The notes under the pieces: generated by a model
Told to the model about the DNA's origin: nothing
The model's input: the letters and a program-made list of their open reading frames with translations, nothing else
Databases searched by the model: none
Shown here: positions 4 to 26,239 of the stretch, piece by piece
How positions within the stretch are numbered: the stretch's first letter is position 1
How the letters are laid out: each line of letters opens with the position of its first letter
Translations under genes and position numbers: made by a program
Virus record (IMG/VR): IMGVR_UViG_3300023176_001959
Span: 1 to 28,787 of that record
DNA length: 28,787 nucleotides
Direction: 5' to 3' (one strand)
From: a virus

Positions 4-174
4 CTAAACATATCTACCCATGCCAGATAGATTGATAATGTTATCAACATCTTGCTGAATGAAAGTGCTCTCATCCGAATCAATGTCAACCAGCAAAGCA
101 CCATTGTAATAATGGTCAGTCTCATTATTCAACAAAGATGCTATTGAATTATAGTATTCAAGAGTGTTTGCCAT
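4..174 (-). CDS. small hypothetical protein (56 aa)
   Basis: An ATG ORF of 56 codons with a TAG stop at 4-6, directly downstream of the 246-aa gene (14-base gap). The peptide is acidic and soluble-looking (contains LLVDIDSDEST) with no membrane segment and no domain I recognise. There is no clear Shine-Dalgarno sequence; the leader is an A-rich run. An ATAAATA motif (186-192 on this strand) sits just upstream and could be a late promoter, but at 12 bases from the start it would leave almost no leader. It is probably the last gene of the accessory operon, but a chance ORF is possible. Confidence 0.45.
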   Translation of the reverse strand: MANTLEYYNSIASLLNNETDHYYNGALLVDIDSDESTFIQQDVDNIINLSGMGRYV

Positions 175-188
175 TTTTTTATTTTTAT

Positions 189-929
189 TTATTGGATGTA
201 TGGGTTTGTTGAGTTATATGTTCTGTAAAACTTGACCGTTGGTTTCTGGTTCTTGTAGAGTTTTACTTTGAAGTGATAATGAAACTTAGTTGGTGTGTAC
301 CCTTCAAACATACTTTCATACTTATCAAATAGTTCTCCATTCACATGAGGGAAACATTCTTTAAGTGCTGTCTTTACATGCAAGAAGTTTTCTACCGTAT
401 AGTTTGGTAATAGTTCTACATTGATATTATCATGCACCACATTGCCATTCTTGTCAAAGTCAAACGCATACAAAACATTGTATGCTCCACCACCAAGAAG
501 TCCTGCAAGTTCTAGTGCATCATTCTTCATTTTGTGGTCTATCTTATTAAACTCTCCAAAGAGAAACCCACACTTAAAGTCTGTTTTCTTACCAATGTCA
601 CCCATCAGTTTAGTAAAGTAACTGTACTGATAATTTGTATTCAAACCAAAAGCATCATTTATCAACTGATACTCCTGCTCGCTTACACCGTTCAACGATA
701 AGTGAAAGTATGGTGACTCAATAAACTTATTACATGGTGTTATTGCCTTATGGAATGTGCGCATCCCTCTAACACCATCTAGTTTATCTGTTAAGATATT
801 GTAGATAGTTTCATATTCTTTTTCTATCTTAGACTTTTTTGGAAAAGAAACTTTTTGATAATCTAAGAAGCAATAATGATAAGAAACATGGTCAGAGGTT
901 AAGTCCCTCTCGAAAAGATAATAAGTCAT
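189..929 (-). CDS. conserved unknown protein, paralogue of the protein at 3859-4578
   Basis: A 246-aa cytoplasmic-looking protein with no signal peptide or membrane helix. Its C-terminal half resembles the 239-aa protein at 3859-4578. Both have an acidic strand of the type INVELLPNY / MHLELYPEK (near residue 170 here), then a lysine-rich strand, and both end in a K-[FY]-Y-R-[TS]-[YL]-N motif. The alternating beta/alpha pattern vaguely recalls ABBA-type prenyltransferases, but this is only an impression and I assign no function. It overlaps the upstream dioxygenase gene by 4 bases (ATGA), so it is translationally coupled to it and belongs to the accessory operon. Confidence 0.75.
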   Translation of the reverse strand: MTYYLFERDLTSDHVSYHYCFLDYQKVSFPKKSKIEKEYETIYNILTDKLDGVRGMRTFHKAITPCNKFIESPYFHLSLNGVSEQEYQLINDAFGLNTNYQYSYFTKLMGDIGKKTDFKCGFLFGEFNKIDHKMKNDALELAGLLGGGAYNVLYAFDFDKNGNVVHDNINVELLPNYTVENFLHVKTALKECFPHVNGELFDKYESMFEGYTPTKFHYHFKVKLYKNQKPTVKFYRTYNSTNPYIQ

Positions 930-1621
930 AGTTGATTATTATGAATACCAATCCAGAAAACTATTGTGTGTCTATTGCCAGATGTAATGGGAGTAACACC
1001 GTGATAATACATCCAGTTACTAGGAAAGACAATAACATCTCCTGTCTTGAAACCGTATGTTTTTCCTATTGATGGAAAGTCTAGATAACCTCCCTCATAG
1101 TCTTCATTAAGATAAACGCAAACGGTCAGTAACCTAGAAAAGTTTAGAGACTCTGCATAGTGGTCATGATGTACTCTAAAAAAGTTATCCTTAGAATAGT
1201 CTAAGATGTGAGCATCACTCACACTCAGTCTGTCACCATAAGCATAGTAGAATGGTCTAACATCTCTGGTGTATCTTCTACCAACTTCTGCCGCCACATC
1301 TTTTACAGTTTTATCTGCAAAGTTTTTGAACGTTGCATCAACTGCATACAGGTTGACATACTCTCCTGTTCTAAGAAGATCGGTCATTGGACTATCAAAT
1401 TTATTTTTGTTAGTCTCGTTGGCAATCTTTTCAGAAAACTCTTGACAAGTTTCCTTTTTTAGTAGGTTTGTATAAACCTTGACATACTGATCTGCTCTAA
1501 GGTCAAACTTCTTTTCTTTAACCTCAGAGAGCATTTGGGTATACTCTTTATTGAATTTATTTCTATACTCTTGGTTATTGAATCTAGAATATAAGTTCGT
1601 GAATGATGTGTTATTATGCAT
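926..1621 (-). CDS. 2OG-Fe(II) oxygenase, prolyl-4-hydroxylase type
   Basis: This 231-aa protein has the complete catalytic signature of the prolyl-4-hydroxylase-like 2OG/Fe(II) superfamily in its C-terminal half. The iron-binding HxD lies in RVHHDHY (H151, D153), the distal histidine is H207 (MYYHGVTP), and the 2-oxoglutarate-binding arginine is R217 (GNRHTIVFW). GGYLDFP and GDVIVFPS are also typical of the double-stranded beta-helix core. The first 100 residues are helical and not recognised. The family hydroxylates proline or related residues using O2 and 2-oxoglutarate; the substrate here is unknown. It overlaps both neighbours (8 and 4 bases), so it is co-translated with another dioxygenase and an unknown protein. 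Confidence 0.9.
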   Translation of the reverse strand: MHNNTSFTNLYSRFNNQEYRNKFNKEYTQMLSEVKEKKFDLRADQYVKVYTNLLKKETCQEFSEKIANETNKNKFDSPMTDLLRTGEYVNLYAVDATFKNFADKTVKDVAAEVGRRYTRDVRPFYYAYGDRLSVSDAHILDYSKDNFFRVHHDHYAESLNFSRLLTVCVYLNEDYEGGYLDFPSIGKTYGFKTGDVIVFPSNWMYYHGVTPITSGNRHTIVFWIGIHNNQL

Positions 1622-2120
1622 CCTCTACACAAATGTCAATACTAACGAATTCAAAACTTTTGTCTGACTCATTCTTTGCAGAATGTTTCACATGTCTAAC
1701 ATCAAAGAAGTAGAGTTCTCCTTTCTTCCAGTTTATCTCCTCATCACCATAATAGAACATCGCGTCAGTGTCCATCAGAGGAATGTGTGCTCTGAAAAAC
1801 TCTTTTGGCCAATACTTCGTATCAACATGCTCACCAACATGCTGACCAGGAGGAATAGTTATCTTAGAAAATGCTAAGATACGATCATCAGATGCAAACT
1901 CTTCAACCGTTTCTGTCGAATACTTATCCTTTGGGATAGTTGCTTCTTCTCTTGGTATCTTTTTGAACGAATAAAGGACACAACCACTATCTTCATCAAT
2001 GTTCCAAGAGATTTTCATATTGGTTTTTGGACTGAAATGTTCGTCCAAAATCAACTGCTTTAACTCATTGATCTTATCATAATATTCAACATAATAAGGT
2101 CTAGAAAAATCAATACTCAT
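1614..2120 (-). CDS. aspartyl/asparaginyl beta-hydroxylase-like 2OG-Fe(II) dioxygenase (168 aa)
   Basis: A short cupin-fold dioxygenase. Its motifs match the Asp/Asn beta-hydroxylase family: HxD in GEHVDTKY (H98, D100), an R-x-H pair (R110, H112 in FFRAHIPL), and a distal histidine in VKHSAKN (H146, N150). At 168 aa it is essentially the catalytic domain alone. It shares this motif order with the upstream 203-aa protein, so the two look like a tandem duplication that has diverged. It overlaps that gene by 4 bases and the downstream one by 8. The substrate is not visible; the family hydroxylates Asp or Asn side chains in proteins, and relatives act on small molecules. Confidence 0.8.
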   Translation of the reverse strand: MSIDFSRPYYVEYYDKINELKQLILDEHFSPKTNMKISWNIDEDSGCVLYSFKKIPREEATIPKDKYSTETVEEFASDDRILAFSKITIPPGQHVGEHVDTKYWPKEFFRAHIPLMDTDAMFYYGDEEINWKKGELYFFDVRHVKHSAKNESDKSFEFVSIDICVEDA

Positions 2121-2728
2121 AGCTTTTCATAAGCACCCATATCAATATTTAGAACCTTCAAGTAAAGAGGATCATTGGTGAAATGTGAACCCATGTACTC
2201 TCTATCATTCTCATAAAGAATATCAAAACAGAGGAAAGATAGGTCTACATCTTTAGATTTGTTTGTTCCACTATGCGTGTCATATACAAAGTCTAGTATG
2301 AAAGGTTTGCCAACTTCTACCTTGATAGTTCCAAAACTTTCGGCAGTGATGTAACTCTCCTCAGCAGTAATAGGAACCAGGATTCTCCATAGGTTCTTAC
2401 CATAATAAGGTGGGTCAACATGTTCTTTAATATCAGAACTTGCTGCGAAAGTGTTTAGACTTACCGTAGGGATATTCTCGTCTAATACAATTTCTTTTAG
2501 TGCATCACTATAAAAGTTTTTGAGTTGTAGACCATCTGTTGGAGACTTAATGACACGGAATGTCCAGTCTCCATATTCATACTTTGATGGAACTTTATAT
2601 GCAGGAACTTCTGTGAAGTCCTGTTTAAGAACATCAGCAGTTACGTCTTGTATCTTTTTGAAGTAGTCTTTTACATACTTAGATTCAAGGTCCAGGAATG
2701 GTCTATTCTGGGGATTCGTCGATTTCAT
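2117..2728 (-). CDS. aspartyl/asparaginyl beta-hydroxylase-like 2OG-Fe(II) dioxygenase (203 aa)
   Basis: This 203-aa protein carries HxD in KEHVDPPY (H103, D105), an arginine in NLWRILVPI (R115), and the distal histidine in YDTHSGTN (H152, N156). It therefore belongs to the same cupin-like dioxygenase group as its downstream neighbour. The second arm of the R-x-H pair is replaced (RIL), a difference from the 168-aa paralogue. The ATG at 2728 lies inside the 3' end of the methyltransferase gene (26-base overlap). All active-site ligands appear intact, so it is probably an active enzyme; its substrate is unknown. Confidence 0.75.
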   Translation of the reverse strand: MKSTNPQNRPFLDLESKYVKDYFKKIQDVTADVLKQDFTEVPAYKVPSKYEYGDWTFRVIKSPTDGLQLKNFYSDALKEIVLDENIPTVSLNTFAASSDIKEHVDPPYYGKNLWRILVPITAEESYITAESFGTIKVEVGKPFILDFVYDTHSGTNKSKDVDLSFLCFDILYENDREYMGSHFTNDPLYLKVLNIDMGAYEKL

Positions 2729-3866
2729 AACTTACATCTAGGTTGACAACACGGGATTCGGAAGTGTCTTCTGCAACTTCCTCACTTGAGAATGATGTTG
2801 AATAAGATAGAGTGGTAGAAGAGTCTGTGGTGGATGTTACACCAGAAGATGTATCTCCTTCGTATGATATTGGATCATCGCATGGCGCTTGAACAAACTC
2901 TGCTTGTTCTGGGTGTTCAGCAATGTATCTTTCCCTATACTCAGTGTATCTCTGCATATAAGGAGCATTTGGATGTGAAGGATCGATCTGAGACTTCTCG
3001 ATACCTTCATTATATGTTTTACCAACATATGGAAGTTCAGATGTATGTTCAATAGCATCTGCAACCTTTGTAAACACGAATATCATACACTCATGGTATC
3101 TATTCGGTGCGTAGTTTTGTGGTTGGTTCTTTCTGATATGAGAAATGTATGATGGGTGAGCATCACATAGTTCGTGGTTGGAGCAGAAAGACTCATTGTA
3201 AGTCATGACATCATAGTCAGGAACTTCAATCCTTTCAACTTCAAACCCATTCTCTACGAATGTGTTCTCAATATCATCTTTATTTGGCAACATTCCAAGA
3301 GAACCTTCTTCATATCCATATTCTCTTTCGATAGATGAGAATAGTTCCATGTATTCTGCATCTTTTTCTTCATCAAGAACAATCTTTACTGGGTTCTTGA
3401 CAACAACTTTTCCACCAGTTTTGATACCAGTAGAAATACTTTTTACTAGAATGTCTAGATTCTTTGTATATCCAATACTTTCAACAAAGTAACAAGCATC
3501 AAAGTATGGTTCAAAGAAAAAGAACTCATTCATATCACTGTGGAAGAATGATGATGAGCAAGTTTCTACATCACACTGTGCGTTTTCAATTTGCTTCTCG
3601 CAGCAGTCAACTCCAATGTAGTTGCAGTTTTTGTATGATGGATGACTCTTCAAGAACCTATGAAACTGTCCATTTCCACATCCAATATCTCCAATGAAAG
3701 AATCATTATCAATGTTACCCAACCTTGCAAGGTAACTAAAATTCTGCTCTCTCAACCCAAGATAAGGCATTTCACTATCTTTGATAAGAGCAATCTGATA
3801 CCCTTGTGGATACTGTTTGTTTATGACATCTGCTAGTGAGTCATAATACGCTTTTGTCTCATTCAT
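2703..3866 (-). CDS. SAM-dependent methyltransferase with a disordered Ser/Thr-rich tail
   Basis: A 387-aa class I methyltransferase. Motif I is FIGDIGCGNGQF (residues 57-68), followed by the acidic end of strand 2 (YIGVDCCE) and a later GGKVVVKNP strand, all in the usual Rossmann order within residues 50-160. Residues 160-265 complete the domain. From about residue 330 to the end the protein is a low-complexity Ser/Thr/Glu/Asp tail with no predicted fold, unusual for a stand-alone phage methyltransferase and possibly a tether. Overlaps with both neighbours (8 bases upstream, 26 downstream) place it in the dioxygenase operon. The acceptor (protein, small molecule or sugar) cannot be told from sequence; nothing suggests a DNA-recognition domain. 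Confidence 0.85.
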   Translation of the reverse strand: MNETKAYYDSLADVINKQYPQGYQIALIKDSEMPYLGLREQNFSYLARLGNIDNDSFIGDIGCGNGQFHRFLKSHPSYKNCNYIGVDCCEKQIENAQCDVETCSSSFFHSDMNEFFFFEPYFDACYFVESIGYTKNLDILVKSISTGIKTGGKVVVKNPVKIVLDEEKDAEYMELFSSIEREYGYEEGSLGMLPNKDDIENTFVENGFEVERIEVPDYDVMTYNESFCSNHELCDAHPSYISHIRKNQPQNYAPNRYHECMIFVFTKVADAIEHTSELPYVGKTYNEGIEKSQIDPSHPNAPYMQRYTEYRERYIAEHPEQAEFVQAPCDDPISYEGDTSSGVTSTTDSSTTLSYSTSFSSEEVAEDTSESRVVNLDVSYEIDESPE

Positions 3867-4578
3867 AGTAAAACTGTGGGATTTTGACGTTGAGGGACCT
3901 ATAATATTTTATATTTTTTATCTCACCTTTTTTAATTCTTACTTTGATGTGTGAGAACTTTTTATAGTCAAGAAAATACTTTGCAAATGGTTTTGTATTT
4001 ACACCATATTTTTCTAAGGTATTTATATAGTCCTCCATACCCACGCCGTTCTTCTCTGGATATAGTTCTAGATGCATATCATCGTAGTCAAGACTTCCAT
4101 TACATCCATTAAAACCAATACATTCAAACATTGTGCCGAAGTCTTTGATAGTCTTTTTGGCACACTCCAATGTTTCTGTACCAATAGGAAACTCATCTAG
4201 ATTTGGCATAGGAAATATTTCTCGATGAGGAATATCCATCCCTTCCTGGTACAGATCAAATGTAAATGAGTTTTGGTTTTTAACAGGAACAATGCCAAGA
4301 GTTTTTAGTTCATCATACTTACTCTGGTCTTTCAAAGTGAAGTTGACAAACGTTCCTCTATTGGATACATTCAAAAATAAAATGTGAAAGTTTATATTCT
4401 TGAACTTCTCTCTTACTCTATTCTCTATTTCAAATAATTTTGAACGTGGATCTCTCTCAGGTATCTGAGATAAACTACGATACCCATAATGATATGAAAA
4501 GTATGGGTTAGAATAAACTTCTCGCTCTATTCCAATACCAAACTTAGAAGGTGTGTGTTCCGCCTGCGACTGTTCCAC
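3859..4578 (-). CDS. conserved unknown protein, paralogue of the protein at 189-929
   Basis: A 239-aa protein with no recognised domain, related over its C-terminal half to the 246-aa protein at the other end of the operon (MHLELYPEK; NIKYYRSLN near the end). The start is uncertain. The only conventional start is a GTG at 4578, which makes the gene overlap the adhesin by 35 bases and gives an N-terminus (MEQSQAEHTPSK) that is a frame-shifted reading of the adhesin end. The conserved part seems to begin near KFGIGIERE, and no ATG lies near that point. It is followed by the methyltransferase with an 8-base overlap. Confidence 0.7.
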   Translation of the reverse strand: MEQSQAEHTPSKFGIGIEREVYSNPYFSYHYGYRSLSQIPERDPRSKLFEIENRVREKFKNINFHILFLNVSNRGTFVNFTLKDQSKYDELKTLGIVPVKNQNSFTFDLYQEGMDIPHREIFPMPNLDEFPIGTETLECAKKTIKDFGTMFECIGFNGCNGSLDYDDMHLELYPEKNGVGMEDYINTLEKYGVNTKPFAKYFLDYKKFSHIKVRIKKGEIKNIKYYRSLNVKIPQFYYE

Positions 4579-5551
4579 TTGTCAATACCACATAATACTT
4601 ACCACTTTTTCTACGAATTCCTTTACCACCGCCACCACCGCCACCGGCAGAACCACCTCCACTATTTCCCCAGTCACCACCATTTCCTGCTGGGTTTGTG
4701 CATAATGTTCCTGCTTGCCTTGCACTGTGACATGTACTTCCACCAGAACCATTAGCGCCAGAATCATTATAGTTTCCACTACTACCGCTAGCACCACTAT
4801 ATTGGAAGTTTGCTCCAGGTATTGGACCAGCATTACCACCACTTCCTCCACCAGCTCCACCACCACCGCCAGCTCCACCTATACCAGCGTTAGTTGTATT
4901 GCAGCAATAACACTCATTATATGAAACAGTTTTACCATTACTGGCACCACCGCCTCCACCACCACCAAGAATTCTTCCACCATTATTAACGTAGATGTTA
5001 GATGAAACTACAAATGCTGGTCCTCCATCTCCCCCATTACCGCCATTTGCGTTACCACCATTTCCACCTTTTCCGTAGATTCTATAGTTGTTTGTGAAGT
5101 AACAGGTTGTACCAGGTCTAGAACCTCCCGGGATATTCAACCCATCATTGCCAGTAGAAGTTGCTGTACAGTTTCCGTTTGTTTGAAGTTCAAAGAAAGC
5201 AGAGTTTACACTGTTCGACTTCAGTGCTTCATTCTCAATACTTCCAACATTTACGGATGCATTATTTCCACTAACAGTCGCAACTGTTTGTCTTGCGTAG
5301 TAGTATATTTTTCCATAAAACTGTGTGAGTTTTATCAAACTACCAGAACCAAAAACTGGTATCCCAGCAAAGTGAACTCCTTGAACTGGGTGTGAAGTAT
5401 CTGTTCTAACTTGGTCAGTACACTTATTTTTCTTCAAATGTGTAGAACCATAATAAAAATCGTTCATCGCAACTTGTGCGGTAGAACCTAAGTTTGTGTA
5501 CTCAGTTCTTAAATCTGAAAGTGCAATTTGACCGCTAGATTGTAAAGTCAT
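4544..5551 (-). CDS. glycine-rich tail-fibre adhesin, gp38-like receptor-binding protein
   Basis: This 335-aa protein starts with MTLQSSGQIALSDLRTEY, an N-terminal module seen in many phage tail-fibre proteins, followed by a beta-rich linker. From about residue 160 it becomes extremely glycine-rich, with runs of GGN/GGA/GGG separated by short variable segments (positions 4600-5080). That is the architecture of gp38-type distal adhesins of T-even-like phages, which fold as a polyglycine-II sandwich with host-binding loops. Several cysteines sit in the putative loops (ECYCCN, STCHSARQ, GTLC). It overlaps the upstream dioxygenase by 4 bases (ATGA). It probably determines host range; attachment directly to the virion rather than to a fibre tip is suggested by the N-terminal module. 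Confidence 0.75.
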   Translation of the reverse strand: MTLQSSGQIALSDLRTEYTNLGSTAQVAMNDFYYGSTHLKKNKCTDQVRTDTSHPVQGVHFAGIPVFGSGSLIKLTQFYGKIYYYARQTVATVSGNNASVNVGSIENEALKSNSVNSAFFELQTNGNCTATSTGNDGLNIPGGSRPGTTCYFTNNYRIYGKGGNGGNANGGNGGDGGPAFVVSSNIYVNNGGRILGGGGGGGASNGKTVSYNECYCCNTTNAGIGGAGGGGGAGGGSGGNAGPIPGANFQYSGASGSSGNYNDSGANGSGGSTCHSARQAGTLCTNPAGNGGDWGNSGGGSAGGGGGGGKGIRRKSGKYYVVLTSGTVAGGTHTF

Positions 5552-6204
5552 TTCTGTATCGAAAAACTATATGGACCAGACTTGAATTTTGATGGAACAA
5601 AATTCATAGAGATTGATACTCTACCATTACCGATATTTATATCATACCCATGATCCAAATGGGATGACCACAAAACTAGGTCTCCTTCTTCAATAAAATC
5701 ACAAACAATATCTTTTTGATTGAACTCTGTGCTCTCTGTGGTATTCAACTCCATGAATGGTTCTACATGAACATTCAAGAATGGATTGGAAAATGCAAGT
5801 GCAGAGTGTATTGATGGGATATAGTTTACATAATAAGTTGCAGACACATATGAGTTTGCGTGACTATGATACCGTTGGAAACCATTCTTATAGCATGTGT
5901 TTATCCAACAGTCCGTTATCATCATTTGCTCAACATCGCGTCCCATGACACCACTCACAAAGTCAAAGGCAGATTCTTCTAAGAAGTTTTTGAAGTCTTG
6001 GTCTGGGATATAATCGAAGAAACCTTTTTCTTGTTCGGATGAATTGAAAAAGTGTTTAAGTTCTGGCGAGATAATACCATCTACTTCCAGTTCCTTATTA
6101 TCTTTAATAAAATCTAGTACAGTTTTTTTGAACTCAATGTGTTTTTTTGGTTCGTACTGTGTCTTCGCGATAGGAACTGGAAACAGAGGATATATGCCTA
6201 ACAT
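5548..6204 (-). CDS. 2OG-Fe(II) oxygenase (TIGR02466/PF13759 type)
   Basis: A 218-aa protein beginning MLGIYPLFPVPI, the LFPxPI N-terminus typical of this family. The iron-ligand region is RYHSHANSYVSATYYV (H113, H115), the distal histidine is in SHLDHGYD (H185), and the 2OG-binding arginine is in GRVSISMNF (R195). This type is common in marine T4-like phages; its substrate is not known. It is the first gene of the accessory operon. Its ATG lies six bases after the U-tract of the terminator that ends the fibre gene, so there is no room for a Shine-Dalgarno sequence and none is seen. It overlaps the adhesin by 4 bases. Confidence 0.88.
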   Translation of the reverse strand: MLGIYPLFPVPIAKTQYEPKKHIEFKKTVLDFIKDNKELEVDGIISPELKHFFNSSEQEKGFFDYIPDQDFKNFLEESAFDFVSGVMGRDVEQMMITDCWINTCYKNGFQRYHSHANSYVSATYYVNYIPSIHSALAFSNPFLNVHVEPFMELNTTESTEFNQKDIVCDFIEEGDLVLWSSHLDHGYDINIGNGRVSISMNFVPSKFKSGPYSFSIQK

Positions 6205-6206
6205 AA

Positions 6207-6245
6207 TACAAAAAAATATACCAGCACTATAACTCAGTGCTGGTA
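6207..6245 (-). terminator. intrinsic terminator after the 1869-aa fibre gene
   Basis: On the minus strand a perfect 10-bp stem (TACCAGCACT / AGTGCTGGTA, 6236-6245 and 6219-6228) with a 7-base loop is followed by TATTTTTTTG. It lies 6 bases after the fibre stop codon and immediately before the next operon's first ATG. This is a textbook Rho-independent terminator. Confidence 0.88.
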
Positions 6246-6250
6246 CAATG

Positions 6251-9200
6251 TCAACCTAGTCTCTTTTCCAGAGCGTCTACTTTATCGGAGAGTTCCTTGA
6301 TTGCTTCAATGAGCAGAGGAACAATCTTATCGTACTGAACTGTAATGTAGTTCTCATCAACAGGTGCAGTTTTAACTGCCTCAGGAAGAACTGCTTGAAC
6401 TTCCTGTGCGGAAACACCAACGTGTGTTTCTGCTTTACTGAAACCTAGTTTCTCAGCAACATCGTTGAATGTATAAGTGAAACCGCTCAGTTGGAGAACC
6501 TTATCCAGTGCATTTTCAAGTGGCTTGATGTTCTCTTTGAGTCTTTCATCAGAAACGAAAGCGATAACATCACCAGTTGCACTGAAATCACCAGTGACTC
6601 TTGCACCATCAGAACGAGTATTGATTCTTACCGTATTGTCATGATAGAGGTTGATAGCACCATCAGCGTTAGCATCAATCATGCTCTCGCCAGTGTACTT
6701 CTGAATGTAGACTCCACCATTACCACGGAGGAAGAGTGAACCATCTCCTCTATCATCAATGTAACTGTTAAGACTATCATGATAGAGGTCTAAGTCATCA
6801 CCATCGCCAAGATACAGGTGATCGTTATCACCGAACCTCATGGTTCCGTTTGTATCAATATCGCCTGTGATAGTTGCAACACCAGCAACACTCAGGTTTC
6901 CACAAACGTTCAGGTTCTTAGCAATACCAACGCCACCACCAACTACAAGAGAACCAGTTGTGCAGCTATTTGACTCTGTGGTTCCACCAAGAGTTTGGTC
7001 TCCACCAATGTTGAGGTTCTTCTCAACACCAACGCCACCATCAACAATAAGAGCACCAGTATCTTTGCTGGTAGACTCTGTGGTTCCACCGATAGTAGCG
7101 ACTCCACAAACATTCAGGTTCTTGGCAATACCAACACCACCAGAAACAACCAGAGCACCAGTTTCACAGTTGGTTGACTGTGTTGTATCGGTGATTTGTG
7201 TTGCACTCTCAATCTTAACTTCGCCCTTGATTTGAACGTTGTCGTTCATCTTCAACTCTTTGTTGAAGGTTACTGGACCGTCAAACTGTGACAGAACCTG
7301 CTGTGAGTTACCACCTTCAACCAGGATTCTTTCCTTAACAATAATTTCGTCAAATACAACAGAAAGTCTTGAAGGATCCTGACCAGTAACAGTTGGAACA
7401 GGAATATCGAAGGTGATCTGCTCACCAGACTGTGCAGAATACTTGGTGTTACCAATGAAGAAGTCACCATCACTGTTCATACCAGTGTAGATAACGTTAC
7501 CGCAGGAACTTTCCTGTGATTGTGCAAGGAAGTCTTCTCTTTCTGTCAGAGTTCTGTTCTGAACCTGTGGCAGACCTGTGGAGTAGTTACCAGGACCATA
7601 ACCAAGATATTCGAACGTATGGCTAGAAGCACGAAGAATAGATGGTCTACGGAATTCAATAGGTAGTGGTTTGATCTTACGAATAAGTGTTCCAGTAGCA
7701 TGGTTCTCTTTCAGAGTACCCATGGAACCACGAATGACTTGGATCTCATCATTACCAGAACCACTCAGCGTGCTGCTGGTGATTCTCATAATCTCATTGT
7801 TGACCTGGATATAAGAACCAAGTGGGAATCTGGATGTAGTTGAGATACCAGAGTTTGGTACACTTACAGAGAACGAAACATCGTTTGTGATGTTTTGGTT
7901 GAGAATAAGAGTCTCATTCTGATAGAATGGAACACCTCTGGTTCCAAGGTTTTCTCCTAGTGAGTCGGCAGTTGCATCGTTACCAGACAGAGCGTGCTTG
8001 ATAAGTGAGACATTTGCACCGAAACTTCTCTTAGTCTTAGAAGTTAGAGAGGTTGGAGATAGAACCTCAGTTACAGTATAACTACCAAGGTTGTTGTTAG
8101 AAGCATCTAGTACAGTAAACTTATTACCAGAGACTAAACCATGTGCTCCACCACAAGTGAAGGTAGCAACTTGTGTTGAAGAGTTGTATGAGGTTGATGT
8201 AGTCTTGACAGTAGGACCAATATTGAAGAAGTATTGACCAACTGTTGGATATGCATCAGATGAGGTTTGAGCAATAGAGATCTGGTTCTTAGCAGGAATA
8301 CCGTGGATGGCATAGTGCCCATCAGTAGCAGTACCGACACCAGTCAGTTGGATGGAGTTACCAACGGAAGTTGAAATACCAGCAGTGGAAAGTACAATGT
8401 TTGCGGTAGGTGTTCCACCAATAACAGTACTATCAAACCATAGAGTCTGACCATTGGCATATCCAGATCCACCAGAGATGATGTCTGTGGATGTTACCGA
8501 ACCACCAGAGACTACAACCTTAGCAGTTGCACCACTCCAAGTTGTCAGAGTGTTCTCATTATACAGTTTTACGTTGAAGTAAGTATTATCTGTGTGACCA
8601 GAACCACCATTCAGTGTTCCATAGGTAACAAGACTGTTGAGTTGGTGCTCTCTATCAAATGTAAGTGTGGTGATACCAGCATTTGAAGTAGAAACACCAG
8701 TAATAGATGGACTCAGTACAAGATTATTGACGAACTTGTCAATGCTTTCTCTTGTAATACTCTTTCTAAGGTCGTTAGATACAACCTCACCAAGAGGTTC
8801 TCTCTTAGCAAATGATACAGCAGATGCTGGGTTATCATGAACGTTATCCTTATCCAACTGAGGATAGAGGTCAACAACGTTCTGTGCATAATTCAGGTCA
8901 GTGAACTCACTCTCAATACTGTTGGATGCATTGAGCATGTAGACATAGTAAACACCATCCTGAACATTGTAAATGTAAGGAGTGATGACTTCTTTTCTGT
9001 ATACGAAGAAGTTACCCTTAACATCGTTCCTTTCAAATCTAGGAAGTGAGATGTTTCTTACGTTTGTATTGTTTGTAAATACGCCTGGACTATGAACAGT
9101 ACCAAAAACATCAGTAGTGCTGTACTTAAACTCCTTGTCACTAACAACATCCGATACCGCAAAGGTTCCGTTGTAACCAATATTGATGGTTGCAGCAGTG

Positions 9201-11860
9201 TTTGTTGTGCTGGTAACGTTCTTAACAATGATCTGGTCACCAACTTTCAGACTATGTGCAAGGTCTGATGTTACGGTAACTAGGTTATTGATAGAATCAA
9301 AAGTACATGTACTGATGAATCTTGGGTTGCGCTCGAAGAGGTAATCGGAAGAAGTTAGAGATGAGAGTGAGAAATCTGCATCACTTCTAGCGCCAGTTGT
9401 ACTAGATTCTTGAATGACGAAACCTTCATTAGGATCTCTACCATTTACAAGTTCCTTAGGAATGACAACACGAACCTTGTAGAGTTTTTCATCCAAGCTT
9501 CTTGGGTCATCAATACGCTTGATATATGCAACGTCGGTCTTTTCTGTTAGCGTTGCAACGCCAAGAGAACTGATAGTAGTGAAGATATCGTTGTTTTGGT
9601 CAACGTGTACATACCAGTTGGAGTTTACCGAGTCCCATTGAATTGGTGAACCAATTTCACCAGCATTCTTATCAGATACTCTACTGATAACTTTAAGTTG
9701 AGTACCAAGATAGATGGGGATGGGTACAGGAGTTGCTGCTTCTGCGTTTGTTTGTGATGATGCTACCTTAATTTCCGATGCAGAATGGCGAATAGCATAG
9801 TATACAGTATTTTCTACCAGGTTTTCTGGTACGTCACCAGTTTCACTGATGATTCTAATCTTTTCACCAGTCTGAATGTCATGTGTACCAAGGGTCAGGA
9901 TGTTAGAACCCGATGATACTGCATCATATGTTTTTGCCGATGATGTTTCACCACGAGCAATAGTTGTACCAGAACCGATAATATTGTCAAGCATGTAGAC
10001 GCTTGCACTCTTGGTTCCTAATGTGGTGTCAATGTATAGAGTTTCATTCTCTCTTGCACCAATACGATAACCCTGAGTGATGACAGGTGGTGCATCGTCA
10101 GCATTATTGAAACCAAACAGATACAGGTGGCTGGCAATACCTACCTGTTGAGTCTTATCAACGTCAAACGCAATCCAGTCGATGTTTGCTTCTTCTGTTG
10201 TGACTGCCTTTGGCGTAATGATGTTGGTGATAAATGCTTTGTTGTCCTTATCAAATGCTTCCTTCTTGAAACCATCAGATGATAGGGAGAACTGACCAAA
10301 GTTGGAGTTAGAGTTGGTGATAGAAGCGTCACCACCAGACTCCATGGAGAAGTGCTTGTTGAAACCAATAGCAAAAACGGAAACAACCTGAATGAAGGAG
10401 TCGTTGCTAACTTTAATGTGAACTGGTTGCCAACCTTGTCTGTAAATAGCACCAGAGTCTAGGTGATAGACTGTTGCTAAGTTTGTAGAAGATGAACCAG
10501 AAGATAGAGCAGCACCAGTTACCTTAGAATAGGTGATAGAATCATACGTTCTATTTGTGGTGTTGTACTTCGCAAATGCACGGTCATCTTTTTGTAGAGA
10601 CACAGCGGTGAACTGTGCAACAACCATTGAACGGAAACCTGCCGCCTTTGAACCATCGGCGTGCATACCATTCATACCCCATACAGAGCGTAGGGAGATG
10701 TTGAAGATATATGGAGAAGCACCAGATACGGTGTCAGTTTCAATAGTTACGGTTGCAGATGAACCACTGAGACCACCAGAAGAACCAGCAGGGAGGTTAT
10801 CTCTTACGAATGGGAGAATGTAGGTGAATGTTGTCTCATCAATAACAGTCTGAACCTTTGTTGATACGTTAAAGTCATCAACGTTGACACCACGAATCTT
10901 GATAGGGGTGTCGGCAGTAAAACCGTGTGCAGTCTGGGTAGTAACAGTTACGACTGGACCAGGAGTTACACCGTCACCACAAATGATGTTACCGATGTTG
11001 ATAGGGTCAGAAGCAAACGCACCAACAATTTCCCACTCAGGACGTTGCTTAGAGAAACCAAGTGCATCCTCTGGATACTTTTGGTCAATATCTCTACCCG
11101 ATGCTTCATTGAAAGCATTGGATAGTTTGCTATAATACATGTCAAGGTCAGTGATAGCATATCCAGAGGGGATATTGACGCCATCAGCGTACTCGAAACA
11201 GGTCAGTTTGTGGTGAGAGAATGTTGGCTTCGACTGGTTATTAGTTGAGAAATCAACGGGGTCAGTGTAAACTAGACCGCTCTCGCTACCATCAAAGATA
11301 GAGAACTGCCAGAAGTAACATGCACCAGTTACTCTGAAAATAGCAGAACCATTTAGGTTATCATCAGTTGGGTTTGGAATGTACTTAGGACGAATCTTAG
11401 TCTTTCTAAGGTCAAGACCAACCAGAGAAGTACCACGGGGAACAACAACACCACCGTTGATACTGTTGAACTTATAGAGAATATTGTTTGTCTGAGTTAA
11501 ATCAAAGTTAGAGCTCAGTGTAAGGGAAAGTTCTTCTGACGCTACGCTCTCTGCGCCAGATGGGGATACTGCTCTGGCAACATTCGCGACTGATTTAATA
11601 GCATAACCAGGTCTGTTATCAACTACGTGTTCACCTGGGAACAAAAGAATTGTAGTCTTTTCTACTAAGTCGTTATTATCTCCACGCAAATACGAGAACC
11701 TAGCAGATTCTAGTAATGCCCTCTGAATAGTTTTGAAGGGTTTAGTTAACGAATTGCCTTGGTTATCAATGCTATCCGTTGCATCAAGGTCATTAGGATT
11801 GACGTAAAGAATTCTGCCTTCTGTATTCCTAATAAAATTTTCTAGTTTGTTCAGTGGCAT
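6251..11860 (-). CDS. giant tail-fibre/baseplate appendage protein with C-terminal S74 chaperone domain
   Basis: At 1869 aa this is the largest gene. The N-terminus (GRILYVNPNDLDAT...PFKTIQRAL) has the opening pattern of right-handed beta-helix proteins. The middle is a long series of beta-rich segments, including an ISGGSGYANGQTL module also seen in the gp5-like hub. Three tandem 34-residue repeats follow at about residues 1559-1660, then LYLGDGDDLDLYHDS-type fibre repeats. The last 100 residues are a peptidase S74 intramolecular chaperone: SDERLKENI (catalytic Ser about 1770, with its Lys) and the SAQEVQAVLPEAV helix, ending in a coiled coil. By analogy it trimerises and then cleaves itself before that serine. 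A GATAAATA motif 33 bases upstream is a likely late promoter and a terminator follows the stop. Confidence 0.88.
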   Translation of the reverse strand: MPLNKLENFIRNTEGRILYVNPNDLDATDSIDNQGNSLTKPFKTIQRALLESARFSYLRGDNNDLVEKTTILLFPGEHVVDNRPGYAIKSVANVARAVSPSGAESVASEELSLTLSSNFDLTQTNNILYKFNSINGGVVVPRGTSLVGLDLRKTKIRPKYIPNPTDDNLNGSAIFRVTGACYFWQFSIFDGSESGLVYTDPVDFSTNNQSKPTFSHHKLTCFEYADGVNIPSGYAITDLDMYYSKLSNAFNEASGRDIDQKYPEDALGFSKQRPEWEIVGAFASDPINIGNIICGDGVTPGPVVTVTTQTAHGFTADTPIKIRGVNVDDFNVSTKVQTVIDETTFTYILPFVRDNLPAGSSGGLSGSSATVTIETDTVSGASPYIFNISLRSVWGMNGMHADGSKAAGFRSMVVAQFTAVSLQKDDRAFAKYNTTNRTYDSITYSKVTGAALSSGSSSTNLATVYHLDSGAIYRQGWQPVHIKVSNDSFIQVVSVFAIGFNKHFSMESGGDASITNSNSNFGQFSLSSDGFKKEAFDKDNKAFITNIITPKAVTTEEANIDWIAFDVDKTQQVGIASHLYLFGFNNADDAPPVITQGYRIGARENETLYIDTTLGTKSASVYMLDNIIGSGTTIARGETSSAKTYDAVSSGSNILTLGTHDIQTGEKIRIISETGDVPENLVENTVYYAIRHSASEIKVASSQTNAEAATPVPIPIYLGTQLKVISRVSDKNAGEIGSPIQWDSVNSNWYVHVDQNNDIFTTISSLGVATLTEKTDVAYIKRIDDPRSLDEKLYKVRVVIPKELVNGRDPNEGFVIQESSTTGARSDADFSLSSLTSSDYLFERNPRFISTCTFDSINNLVTVTSDLAHSLKVGDQIIVKNVTSTTNTAATINIGYNGTFAVSDVVSDKEFKYSTTDVFGTVHSPGVFTNNTNVRNISLPRFERNDVKGNFFVYRKEVITPYIYNVQDGVYYVYMLNASNSIESEFTDLNYAQNVVDLYPQLDKDNVHDNPASAVSFAKREPLGEVVSNDLRKSITRESIDKFVNNLVLSPSITGVSTSNAGITTLTFDREHQLNSLVTYGTLNGGSGHTDNTYFNVKLYNENTLTTWSGATAKVVVSGGSVTSTDIISGGSGYANGQTLWFDSTVIGGTPTANIVLSTAGISTSVGNSIQLTGVGTATDGHYAIHGIPAKNQISIAQTSSDAYPTVGQYFFNIGPTVKTTSTSYNSSTQVATFTCGGAHGLVSGNKFTVLDASNNNLGSYTVTEVLSPTSLTSKTKRSFGANVSLIKHALSGNDATADSLGENLGTRGVPFYQNETLILNQNITNDVSFSVSVPNSGISTTSRFPLGSYIQVNNEIMRITSSTLSGSGNDEIQVIRGSMGTLKENHATGTLIRKIKPLPIEFRRPSILRASSHTFEYLGYGPGNYSTGLPQVQNRTLTEREDFLAQSQESSCGNVIYTGMNSDGDFFIGNTKYSAQSGEQITFDIPVPTVTGQDPSRLSVVFDEIIVKERILVEGGNSQQVLSQFDGPVTFNKELKMNDNVQIKGEVKIESATQITDTTQSTNCETGALVVSGGVGIAKNLNVCGVATIGGTTESTSKDTGALIVDGGVGVEKNLNIGGDQTLGGTTESNSCTTGSLVVGGGVGIAKNLNVCGNLSVAGVATITGDIDTNGTMRFGDNDHLYLGDGDDLDLYHDSLNSYIDDRGDGSLFLRGNGGVYIQKYTGESMIDANADGAINLYHDNTVRINTRSDGARVTGDFSATGDVIAFVSDERLKENIKPLENALDKVLQLSGFTYTFNDVAEKLGFSKAETHVGVSAQEVQAVLPEAVKTAPVDENYITVQYDKIVPLLIEAIKELSDKVDALEKRLG
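6881..7186 (-). repeat. three tandem 102-bp coding repeats in the fibre gene
   Basis: Three in-frame copies of a 34-residue unit of the form TT[EQ]S...TG[AS]L[VI]V.GGVG[IV].KNLN[VI].G; adjacent copies of the TGGTTCC boundary lie exactly 102 bases apart (6979 and 7081). Each unit probably forms one rung-like segment of the fibre shaft. Copy number could vary between relatives by recombination. Confidence 0.85.
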
Positions 11861-12231: not shown

Positions 12232-12315
12232 TAGGACGAGAGGGACTTGAACCCTCACGAGCACGATGCTCAACAGATTTTAAGTCTGGTGCGTCTACCA
12301 TTCCGCCACCGTCCC
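12232..12315 (-). tRNA. tRNA-Leu (anticodon UAA)
   Basis: A class II tRNA with a long variable arm. The 7-bp acceptor GGGACGG/TCGTCCT includes two G-U pairs; the D-arm has GCGGAATGGTAGACGC, the anticodon loop is CTTAAAA (anticodon TAA), and the T-arm is GAGGG-TTCAAGT-CCCTC. The discriminator is A and the CCA end is not encoded. It reads UUA/UUG, codons favoured in an AT-rich phage. Confidence 0.93.
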
Positions 12316-12320
12316 GTAGG

Positions 12321-12393
12321 TGCTCCATGCGTGGATCGAACACGCCTCAGGCGAATTATGAGTTCGCTGCATTCACCAGATTGCTAATGGAGC
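12321..12393 (-). tRNA. tRNA with anticodon CAU (Met elongator, or Ile2)
   Basis: The acceptor GCTCCAT/ATGGAGC is a perfect 7 bp. The anticodon arm is GCGAA-CTCATAA-TTCGC and the T-arm GCGTG-TTCGATC-CACGC; the discriminator is A. The encoded 3' end is CCT, not CCA. The G1-C72 pair rules out a standard initiator tRNA. CAU could be Met, or Ile if C34 is converted to lysidine; the neighbouring UAU tRNA already reads AUA, which slightly favours Met. Confidence 0.9.
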
Positions 12394-12395
12394 AA

Positions 12396-12467
12396 TAGGA
12401 GTACTGGGAGTTGAACCCAGACTAACCCGTTATAAGCAGGTCGCTCTAACCATTAAGCTATACTCCC
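12396..12467 (-). tRNA. tRNA-Ile (anticodon UAU)
   Basis: The acceptor is GGGAGTA/TACTCCT (one G-U pair) and the D-arm has TAGCTTAATGGTTAGAGC. The anticodon arm is ACCTG-CTTATAA-CGGGT, giving anticodon TAT, and the T-arm is CTGGG-TTCAACT-CCCAG. The discriminator is A. UAU reads AUA directly, which is uncommon in bacteria because they normally use a lysidine-modified CAU tRNA for that codon. It is two bases upstream of the next tRNA. Confidence 0.87.
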
Positions 12468-25009: not shown

Positions 25010-25660
25010 ATGAGTTATTTCAGAGAACTTCCAGACTTAGAATACCAGTCAGTAGTAAGTGATAGAAACTCATCACTCGACTATGTAACTGTCAAGAACT
25101 TATTCAGAAGGGCAAAACTTCGTGACGACTTACAGAATGTATTCACGCTCTTCAATAAGTATCAGATAAGAGATGGTGCAAGACCAGACACAGTTGCAGA
25201 AGAAATCTATGGTTCACCAGACTATGACTGGGTGGTCCTTATGTCAGCAAATATCACTAACGTAAGAGACCAATGGCCACTTTCTGATAGAGACTTGTAT
25301 CGCTTCTCAGAAGAGAAGTACACTATTCAGAAACTAACTGACGTAAAATATTATGAAACAACAGAAGTCAAAGACTCTTCTGGAAGACTTATTCTTCCTG
25401 CTGGGAAAGTAGTAGATAAGACTTTCACTATTCCAGACCCATCCAATCCTCTTGCAACTCTGAACCCAACAAGAGGTGTTTCTAACTACGAATACGAAGT
25501 TAAAAAGAACGAAGAGAAGCGTGGTATTTACCTTCTAAAACCAGGATATCTCCAACAGTACATCGAAGACTTTAGGTCAGCAATGTACTATCAGAGATCA
25601 TCTCAGTATGTGAACGATAGACTTATAAGAACTGAAAATACTAGAAATACTTCACCATAG
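25010..25660 (+). CDS. gp53: gp53-like baseplate wedge protein
   Basis: A 216-aa protein (T4 gp53, 196 aa). The conserved core is NLFRRAKLRDDLQNVFTLF, then YQIRDGARPDTVAEEIYGS and DYDWVVLMSANITNVRDQWP, the LysM-like wedge domain typical of gp53; the C-terminal YQRSSQY part is family-typical. In T4 it joins wedges to the hub during baseplate assembly. It is the last gene of the plus-strand operon, and its final 9 bases overlap the end of the convergent Mom-like gene. No terminator is seen between them. Confidence 0.88.
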   Translation: MSYFRELPDLEYQSVVSDRNSSLDYVTVKNLFRRAKLRDDLQNVFTLFNKYQIRDGARPDTVAEEIYGSPDYDWVVLMSANITNVRDQWPLSDRDLYRFSEEKYTIQKLTDVKYYETTEVKDSSGRLILPAGKVVDKTFTIPDPSNPLATLNPTRGVSNYEYEVKKNEEKRGIYLLKPGYLQQYIEDFRSAMYYQRSSQYVNDRLIRTENTRNTSP

Positions 25661-26239
25661 TAGTTTCAACTTCTTATCAAACATCATAACGTAACGGTGC
25701 TTGCGGGAGCGGTCTTTCCATTCTCCCTCAGCACCTTTTATTTTGCCGCGTGAATGTTTGGTGCCGTCGGCGTAGTAGAAGTCTTTCTTAGCATCTGTAA
25801 GCCCACAATATTTAAAGTTGCAAGCACGATAAATTGTGCCGTCATGATACTCAGAATCAGCATAAGAAATGATCGCTGAGACTTCTGTGTCCTTGCGAAA
25901 CTGTCTAATCGCTTTTGCAACGAACCAAGAAGTAATGTTGTACTCTTGTGACTGCGTATCTGGGTGGATGCAGAGTCTAGAGAGTTCGAAGAGTCCTTGC
26001 TGTTCATTTCTTCCAAGACCGAATGCTCCTTGCGCTACTTCTGGAACAGGGAGTCCAGTGAATATAATCACTCCCTGAATACCACCAATATTTAGAGGTG
26101 AGAAGTCGTTTTTCTTATAAAGACCGTAGTTATATCCTGACTTGAAACCTTTTGAAATATCTTTAAGATAATGAAACCGCAGAAGTAACTCTGCGGCTTC
26201 GGTCTTACTTACTCTGTCAATGTAATAGTCAGTTTTCAC
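25652..26239 (-). CDS. Mom-like GNAT-fold protein, possible DNA-modification enzyme
   Basis: A 195-aa protein. The core GLFELSRLCIHPDTQSQEYN, NITSWFVAKAIRQFRK and AIISYADSEYHDGTIYRACNF matches the Mom group of GNAT-related proteins, including the YADSEYHDGTIYRA segment. Phage Mu Mom makes a hypermodified adenine (carbamoylmethyl) that protects DNA from restriction, so a DNA-modification role is plausible, though some relatives are annotated only as acyltransferases. It starts with GTG at 26239, overlapping the stop of a 22-codon ORF by 4 bases (GTGA). It is co-transcribed with gp32 and convergent with gp53. Confidence 0.72.
   Translation of the reverse strand: MKTDYYIDRVSKTEAAELLLRFHYLKDISKGFKSGYNYGLYKKNDFSPLNIGGIQGVIIFTGLPVPEVAQGAFGLGRNEQQGLFELSRLCIHPDTQSQEYNITSWFVAKAIRQFRKDTEVSAIISYADSEYHDGTIYRACNFKYCGLTDAKKDFYYADGTKHSRGKIKGAEGEWKDRSRKHRYVMMFDKKLKLLW

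Follow-up and report, generated by a model that had tools for sequence, protein, structure and literature searches.

What does a T4-like phage modify with a tail operon in which hydroxylases, methyltransferases and predicted prenyltransferases are packed around one glycine-rich protein? The question is raised by IMG/VR virus record IMGVR_UViG_3300023176_001959, whose entire 28,787 bases, hereafter the window, were analyzed and represent a T4-like (Kyanoviridae-type) myovirus contig. Eight open reading frames (ORFs) were verified on the minus strand at positions 189-6204, and we designated them in the order of transcription as g1, g2, g3, g4, g5, g6, g7 and g8. With a further methyltransferase gene that is interrupted by the window end, the cassette contains four 2-oxoglutarate (2OG)/Fe(II)-type enzymes, two methyltransferases, two predicted prenyltransferases and one Gly-rich tail protein. 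We give about even chances to the reading that this cassette serves specifically to tailor a protein of the phage itself, the tail-tip adhesin g2. The fold-based identification of the predicted viral prenyltransferases, g3 and g8, is the strongest new point.

The g3 (3859..4578, minus strand, GTG start, 239 amino acids (aa)) and g8 (189..929, minus strand, 246 aa) proteins are weak paralogues, with 27% identity over 92 aa (E = 1e-3, between g3 of the related contig L002 and g8 of the window). The earlier note regarded them as two related unknown proteins; their relationship was confirmed, but g8 matches prenyltransferases by its predicted fold. The AlphaFold2 model of g8, calculated with 13 sequences, has a predicted local distance difference test (pLDDT) score of 78.5 and a predicted template modelling (pTM) score of 0.79, and its ten strands, arranged in five pairs, form a predicted ten-stranded barrel with the helices outside. 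A Foldseek search of the PDB with this model gave 376 matches at E<=10, and all 16 matches at E<=0.001 are ABBA prenyltransferases. Ranks 1-39 of the 376 and 46 of the 50 best rows are also prenyltransferases. In VIA-align, the best 50 rows are all prenyltransferases, with a top Z score of 10.4 for 228 aligned residues and a root mean square deviation (rmsd) of 4.4. The Z scores against the cyanobactin-type enzymes are 9.7 (PatF), 9.1 (DciF), 9.0 (KgpF) and 8.6 (PagF). Values under 8 may reflect merely a common arrangement in this method, and those of g8 lie above this level and are uniform in kind. PatF, DciF, KgpF and PagF act on peptides.

Viral scans of IMG/VR detected g3/g8 relatives in 24 contigs besides the window, 13 of which are close (lineage 1) and 11 of which form a second group with approximately 30% identity to g8 (lineage 2); as lineage 1 includes several near-identical contigs, the 25 are not independent cases. 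In an alignment of 19 g3/g8 members, which are 17-89% identical to g8, Glu7, His18, Phe105, Thr106, Phe158, Glu172, Pro175, Leu189, His219, Lys221, Lys233, Tyr235 and Pro243, as well as Met1, are invariant in all 19. His219-x-Lys221 and Lys233-x-Tyr235 of g8 are located in the last two strands of the model at alternating positions, and their side chains are expected to point to the same side. These four residues may line the diphosphate site. The predicted ten-stranded barrel is shared with the ABBA prenyltransferases, including PatF, PagF, KgpF and DciF, and the alternating Lys, Tyr and His residues of its last strands may be a further likeness. In contrast to these ABBA prenyltransferases, g8 is shorter, lacks a sequence-family match and shows 5-11% identity in the rows shown. 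Moreover, g8 is a viral protein encoded in a tail-fibre operon, whereas the ABBA prenyltransferases are found in natural-product clusters. Based on the single g8 model, from which the fold of g3 was also deduced, we designate both proteins as predicted viral PT-barrel prenyltransferases.

A sequence search of the PDB with the g3/g8 profile gave matches at chance level only, and tblastn searches with g3, g4, g8 and a predicted lineage-2 prenyltransferase found no match among 50,697 records of phage isolates. A cellular origin of the family is unsupported, as two scans of genome contigs for cellular g3/g8 relatives found none. Among predicted viral structures (BFVD), uncharacterised proteins of S-RIM44 and ACG-2014e match the g8 model with an E value of 3e-4. 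The ACG-2014e candidate (284 aa), placed by its protein length only, follows genes for a tail fibre, a tail assembly chaperone, two 2OG proteins and an "endonuclease V". A match in S-CAM3 (325-326 aa), likewise placed by protein length only, has its candidate gene at 56975-57955, about 9 kb or more from the tail genes. For a 231-aa match in S-RIM32 (Foldseek E = 0.03), a hypothetical gene at 46765-47460 fits by protein length.

The claim of the earlier note that eight overlapping genes occupy this locus was verified: all ORFs are present, and neighbours from g1 to g8 overlap by 4, 35, 8, 26, 4, 8 and 4 nt. The coordinates of contig L002 give an identical set of overlaps. These overlaps make matched production of the members plausible. 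The ratio of nonsynonymous to synonymous substitution rates between L002 and L003 is 0.04-0.18 in every one of the eight genes, indicating purifying selection. A hairpin of 13 pairs with a T-run and a promoter-like sequence matching the consensus (TTGACA-17-TATAGT) are located at 6217..6254 (minus strand), between the tail fibre gene and g1. Because of this promoter-like site and the hairpin, the cassette may be a transcription unit of its own. By eye, both promoter-like hexamers are recognisable in all six aligned loci, and in the most diverged of them the hairpin is re-formed from different bases without the T-run.

The four 2OG/Fe(II)-type proteins retain the iron ligands, as HxD...H in g5, g6 and g7 and as HxH...H in g1. 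The prolyl-4-hydroxylase-type g7 (926..1621, minus strand, 231 aa) matches PF13640 (E = 2e-13), and the ligands His151-x-Asp153, the distal His207 and the 2OG-binding Arg217 are conserved in 7/7 sequences. In the PDB, it is closest to prolyl 4-hydroxylases (E = 1e-9) and to prolyl 3-hydroxylase 1, and PKHD-type hydroxylases were also matched. The g1 protein (5548..6204, minus strand, 218 aa) is a 2OG-FeII_Oxy_5-type oxygenase (PF13759, E = 3e-14; His113-x-His115...His185); its triad is present in 8/8 aligned sequences, including PF13759-type paralogues, and its PDB relatives 3bvc and 2rg4 are solved structures of uncharacterised proteins. The g6 protein (1614..2120, minus strand, 168 aa; His98-x-Asp100...His146) is an Asp/Asn beta-hydroxylase-type oxygenase, which matches PF05118 (E = 3e-7) with 30.9 bits against a cut-off of 22.6. 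Its paralogue g5 (2117..2728, minus strand, 203 aa) has no 2OG match in Pfam and is tied to the Asp/Asn beta-hydroxylases solely via g6, with HxD...H conserved in 9/9 aligned g5/g6 sequences. At the last-strand position that, judged by eye, probably corresponds to the 2OG-binding Arg of Asp hydroxylases, g5 and g6 have Leu/Phe. Accordingly, of the four intact dioxygenases proposed in the earlier note, all keep their iron ligands, but 2OG binding is less sure in g5 and g6. DiO (D/B-b-hydroxylase) of the Prochlorococcus phages P-HM1 and P-HM2 is a g5/g6 homologue with 28-31% identity, and DiO of P-HM1 is encoded away from the tail genes, unlike g5 and g6.

A collagen-type substrate for g7 was considered and rejected, as PF01391 was matched in 0/6 records of relatives, including a 146-kb contig. 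Gly-x-y-like tail proteins were recognised by eye in P-SSM2, ACG-2014f, S-CAM7, AG-345-F15 and AG-345-L05. A protein of ACG-2014e that is annotated as DNA endonuclease V (L037:46329-46838) shows the HxD...H pattern of 2OG oxygenases, and the PHROGs matched by g7 include some that are named endonuclease or ferrochelatase. Therefore, these labels may be wrong for the family.

In place of the one S-adenosylmethionine (SAM) methyltransferase described previously, two are present. The class I SAM methyltransferase g4 (2703..3866, minus strand, 387 aa; Methyltransf_11, E = 5e-10) has a Ser/Thr-rich C-terminal tail, and its PDB matches include LahSB (6e-12) and BamL/BpumL. The ORF at 4..174 (minus strand) is the truncated N-terminus (56 aa) of a g4 paralogue of about 380 aa, which is interrupted by the window end and complete in contig L018 (L018:1373-2512; 99.5% identity to the window over 1,544 nt). 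Both match a curated class I SAM methyltransferase domain above its cut-off. In L018, the second methyltransferase gene is followed by a 717-aa ORF at the position where relatives have the phrog_3269 tail gene. The g4 copy in contig L007 (L007:1787-3100) has a longer C-terminal tail that weakly resembles repeats in the adjacent tail proteins (best E = 0.01).

The g2 protein (4544..5551, minus strand, 335 aa, 79 Gly) is a Gly-rich tail-tip adhesin-like protein, the C-terminal two thirds of which match phrog_11439 (tail fiber, E = 6e-9). Residues 159-311 contain 39% Gly, with variable loops between the Gly-rich motifs, and the conservation in this part across six sequences is 0.90 for Gly columns and 0.69 for other columns. 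Among the eight genes, g2 is the most diverged between the window and L002 (64% identity; 65% for g3 and 92% for g5). It contains a single Trp in its 335 residues, located within the Gly-rich part. The sequence NECYCC (residues 212-217) is invariant in 7/7 aligned adhesins and is a possible modification, metal or disulfide site. No sequence match to g2 was found in the PDB, and its tblastn search of the 50,697 phage records gave no match, a result made uninformative by the low-complexity filter. With this filter turned off, which inflates the E value, gp053 of S-SRM01 aligns with g2 at 27% identity (E = 2e-24); this S-SRM01 adhesin also gave no convincing match in the PDB.

The earlier note called g2 a gp38-like adhesin. 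In gp38 of the Salmonella phage S16 (PMC6851490), hypervariable loops between Gly-rich helices are the proposed receptor contact. Both g2 and the S16 gp38 polyglycine sandwich have Gly-rich motifs with variable loops and are encoded in the tail-fibre region of T4-like genomes, so that the likeness in make-up stands. However, the N-terminal module of g2 differs from that of gp38, and the conserved attachment tryptophans in the N-terminal helices of gp38 are missing. Because g2 has neither these tryptophans nor a PDB match or a usable model, homology was not supported, and on the tests run we term it adhesin-like rather than of the S16 gp38 type.

The link between the enzymes and the adhesin is conserved. 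A Gly-rich ORF lies within the block in all 13 contigs that extend to the adhesin side (the window, L002-L007 and L016 of lineage 1; L050, L052, L054, L066 and L067 of lineage 2), and the remaining 12 of the 25 contigs end short of this position. The earlier note had named relatives with unlinked enzymes and adhesin as counterevidence; the two are linked in every contig that could be judged. Among 49 ORFs of at least 250 aa in nine loci, seven have a Gly content of at least 20%, one for each locus that reaches the site, and this ORF is always the cassette adhesin. In lineage 1, the fibre gene is followed by g1, the adhesin, the enzymes, the phrog_3269 tail gene and the helicase. Lineage 2, with approximately 30% identity in the enzymes common to both, has its block elsewhere in the tail operon. 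In L050, L052, L066 and L067, the phrog_3269 tail gene is followed by the adhesin and the enzymes, with a 2OG gene preceding the adhesin in L050 and L052, and the enzymes in L058 are upstream of a phrog_3269-like gene. The block members were retained while the block position shifted.

The enzyme set itself varies. Lineage 2 has additional genes for a TauD protein, a methyltransferase and an Asp hydroxylase with a stronger family match (1e-24), together with sulfotransferase-type genes at L054:6401-7051 (2.7e-9) and L050:9318-10028 (1e-3, below the cut-off). A sulfated tail protein would be unusual. In lineage 1, L006 and L016 have no recognisable g6, L016 also has no recognisable g5, and both contigs carry an additional PF13759 enzyme.

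The fibre and phrog_3269 genes are only 16-42 nt apart in seven of nine genomes with both genes (P-SSM2, Sf-CH5, ACG-2014f, S-CAM7, S-T4, S-SRM01 and AG-345-F15). The exceptions have one ORF between them, which is of a collar type in S-SKS1 and Gly-rich in AG-345-L05. Because these genes adjoin without a cassette in 7/9 genomes, the lineage-1 cassette is an addition inside the virion operon.

Similar arrangements occur in isolates. Flavin halogenases, with 2OG genes, are located among or next to tail-fibre and Gly-rich genes in five of nine contexts (syn9, P-TIM40, S-WAM1, S-SZBM1 and S-SRM01), which were chosen from 65 records with a match by a selection that favoured sites near tail genes. 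As in the window, tail-fibre genes are followed by Gly-rich proteins and tailoring-type enzymes; the isolates have halogenases where the window cassette has predicted prenyltransferases, and their genes are annotated singly. The roles published for these genes, in the accessible text, differ from adhesin tailoring. In syn9, P-TIM40, S-WAM1 and S-SZBM1 (L041-L044), long runs of halogenase and 2OG genes are located downstream of Gly-rich tail genes, and those of P-TIM40 and S-SZBM1 also contain cupin-type genes. In S-SRM01 (L033:21681-24262), a tryptophan halogenase gene immediately precedes the adhesin-like gene, the product of which has a Trp- and Cys-rich loop and 9 Trp in 362 aa. The Trp content is at least 1.5% in 12 of 13 Gly-rich ORFs beside halogenases and at most 0.9% in 9/9 Gly-rich ORFs without a halogenase, a contrast that may be due to ancestry, as the Gly-rich proteins are not all homologous.

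Modification of g2 is the simplest account of the cassette, because eight tailoring-type enzymes have been inherited together with a single Gly-rich tail protein, lie in a virion operon and are subject to purifying selection. In the mechanism that we propose, one operon would supply the adhesin and its eight enzymes, which would act before or during fibre assembly. Judging from the kinds of enzymes, the expected groups are hydroxyl, methyl and prenyl: hydroxylation of side chains would be due to the four 2OG/Fe(II) enzymes and methylation to the two methyltransferases, and the two PT-barrel enzymes would transfer prenyl groups from dimethylallyl diphosphate (DMAPP) or geranyl diphosphate (GPP) of the host onto exposed g2 residues. 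Likely sites are the g2 loops between the Gly-rich segments, which would be the counterpart of the proposed host-contact part of S16 gp38. The receptor-binding surface would then be chemically changed, perhaps becoming more hydrophobic or protease-resistant, by an enzyme set that would be swapped among phages. The earlier proposal that the cassette hydroxylates or methylates the adhesin is partly supported overall: the enzyme-adhesin linkage (13/13) agrees with it, but the chemistry appears wider, with predicted prenyl transfer in the window, sulfotransferase-type genes in lineage 2 and halogenases in analogous loci.

Several observations weigh against adhesin tailoring or against the prenyltransferase assignment that it includes. 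The assignment comes from one predicted model built on 13 sequences, and the significant Foldseek matches of g8 have TM-scores of 0.44-0.56 (by query length), with rmsd values of 4-5 Å in VIA-align. No prenyltransferase family in Pfam or NCBIfam fits the 13 scanned g3/g8 members, and an hhalign profile of g3/g8 links to 0/230 ORFs of isolates. The structure model of g2 has a pLDDT of 33, and its loops and receptor role are therefore guesses. Similar adhesins also occur without adjoining enzymes, as in AG-345-L05. In addition, the N-terminal 81-residue module of g2 heads Gly-rich proteins at L063:5860-6876 and L064:2133-3299, in contigs that look unrelated and contain no cassette enzymes by BLAST; because of this distribution, it may serve generally for virion attachment. 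In the other four of the nine contexts (P-SSM2, S-RIM44, S-SSM7 and HTVC008M), the halogenases lie away from tail-tip genes, whether 2OG genes accompany them or not. Finally, linkage to the fibre gene equally suits another virion protein as the substrate.

It is unlikely, however, that the enzymes act on such a protein, namely the 1,869-aa tail fibre, the phrog_3269 tail protein or a baseplate protein, with the Gly-rich protein as a mere neighbour. The phrog_3269 gene adjoins the cassette in both lineages, as does the fibre gene in lineage 1, and both genes are nearby wherever the contig extends, but the same two genes do without a cassette in the seven genomes described above, and the Gly-rich gene is inside the block in both lineages despite the different block position. 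We consider it quite unlikely that the cassette produces a small molecule or a product resembling ribosomally synthesised and post-translationally modified peptides (RiPPs), or that it changes molecules of the host surface, for instance to keep out competing phages or to alter the host. In favour of this reading, the mix of enzymes is like that of tailoring clusters for natural products, the PDB matches of the methyltransferase include LahSB and BamL/BpumL, and S-SSM7 has a halogenase within a carbohydrate-type locus. Nevertheless, the methyltransferase matches are generic class I enzymes, and the Gly-rich tail protein is the only conserved non-enzyme gene recognised in the block. Among the scanned block genes, none was recognised as encoding a core-building enzyme, a leader-bearing precursor, a protease or a transporter, although no search was aimed at them.

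The two remaining alternatives concern the enzymes themselves. That g3 and g8 are catalytically dead and serve as a scaffold or chaperone on a PT-barrel-like fold is decidedly unlikely: they are short (239-246 aa, compared with 280 or more in the matched prenyltransferases) and share only about 5-14% identity with them, but the Lys, Tyr, His and Glu residues that are invariant in 19/19 divergent members suit an active site better than a scaffold. Accessible parts of earlier cyanophage studies propose that 2OG enzymes serve 2-oxoglutarate/nitrogen signalling (PMC3037559) or DNA repair (PMC2984593, PMC9146016). A role in such signalling or in nucleic-acid repair is highly improbable here, since the 2OG genes have PT-like, methyltransferase and Gly-rich genes as neighbours in a tail operon, none of the block genes was recognised as a repair gene, and the PDB matches of g7 are prolyl and PKHD-type hydroxylases.

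The 1,869-aa tail fibre gene (6251..11860, minus strand; phrog_529) is directly upstream of the cassette, and the closest named phages by DNA are Synechococcus myoviruses, with approximately 72% identity confined to this gene. PHROG matches to a single-strand DNA binding protein, a helicase loader, a late promoter regulator, baseplate hub and wedge, tail tube and head closure point to T4-like replication, head and tail genes. A cyanobacterial host was considered and not supported, as the psbA family was matched in 0/3 records and the related 146-kb contig has neither psbA nor a PF00504 match. Three tRNA genes (Leu-TAA, Met-CAT and Ile-TAT) are clustered upstream of the fibre gene at 12232-12467 (minus strand), and the gene at 25652-26239 (minus strand), between gp53-like and gp32-like genes, matches phrog_1384 (E = 2e-33) and encodes a Mom-like DNA modification protein.

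Cyanophage-type genomes have many 2OG oxygenases and flavin halogenases for which no substrate is known; to our knowledge, VirX1, the halogenase of cyanophage Syn10, has no known natural substrate. The cassette offers a single testable one, because a tail-tip protein is its only recognised conserved non-enzyme member. According to a review (PMC10452541), 76 of 153 cyanophage genomes have 2OG oxygenases and twenty have halogenase genes, both classed as auxiliary metabolic genes. The roles given for them in accessible parts of the literature are nitrogen signalling, DNA repair, cell protection or general metabolism (PMC10452541, PMC3037559, PMC2984593, PMC9146016). No earlier description of phage prenyltransferases or of adhesin tailoring was found in the accessible portions of the open-licence literature, and g3 and g8 represent a new viral family of predicted prenyltransferases.

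We tentatively propose, at somewhat less than even chances, a widespread and hitherto unnoticed strategy, in which T4-like phages of aquatic bacteria carry exchangeable sets of prenyltransferases, halogenases, hydroxylases, methyltransferases and sulfotransferases. These enzymes would introduce non-standard side chains into the receptor-binding tail tip, and host recognition would thereby be diversified through chemistry in addition to sequence. In this proposal, g3 and g8 would act as viral protein prenyltransferases of the PT-barrel type, and at least some phage halogenases and 2OG oxygenases would have their missing substrates in tail adhesins. If the tail-tip protein is modified in this way, viruses chemically decorate the part with which they grip the host, and phage host range can depend on enzymatic decoration and would not be predicted by the adhesin sequence alone.

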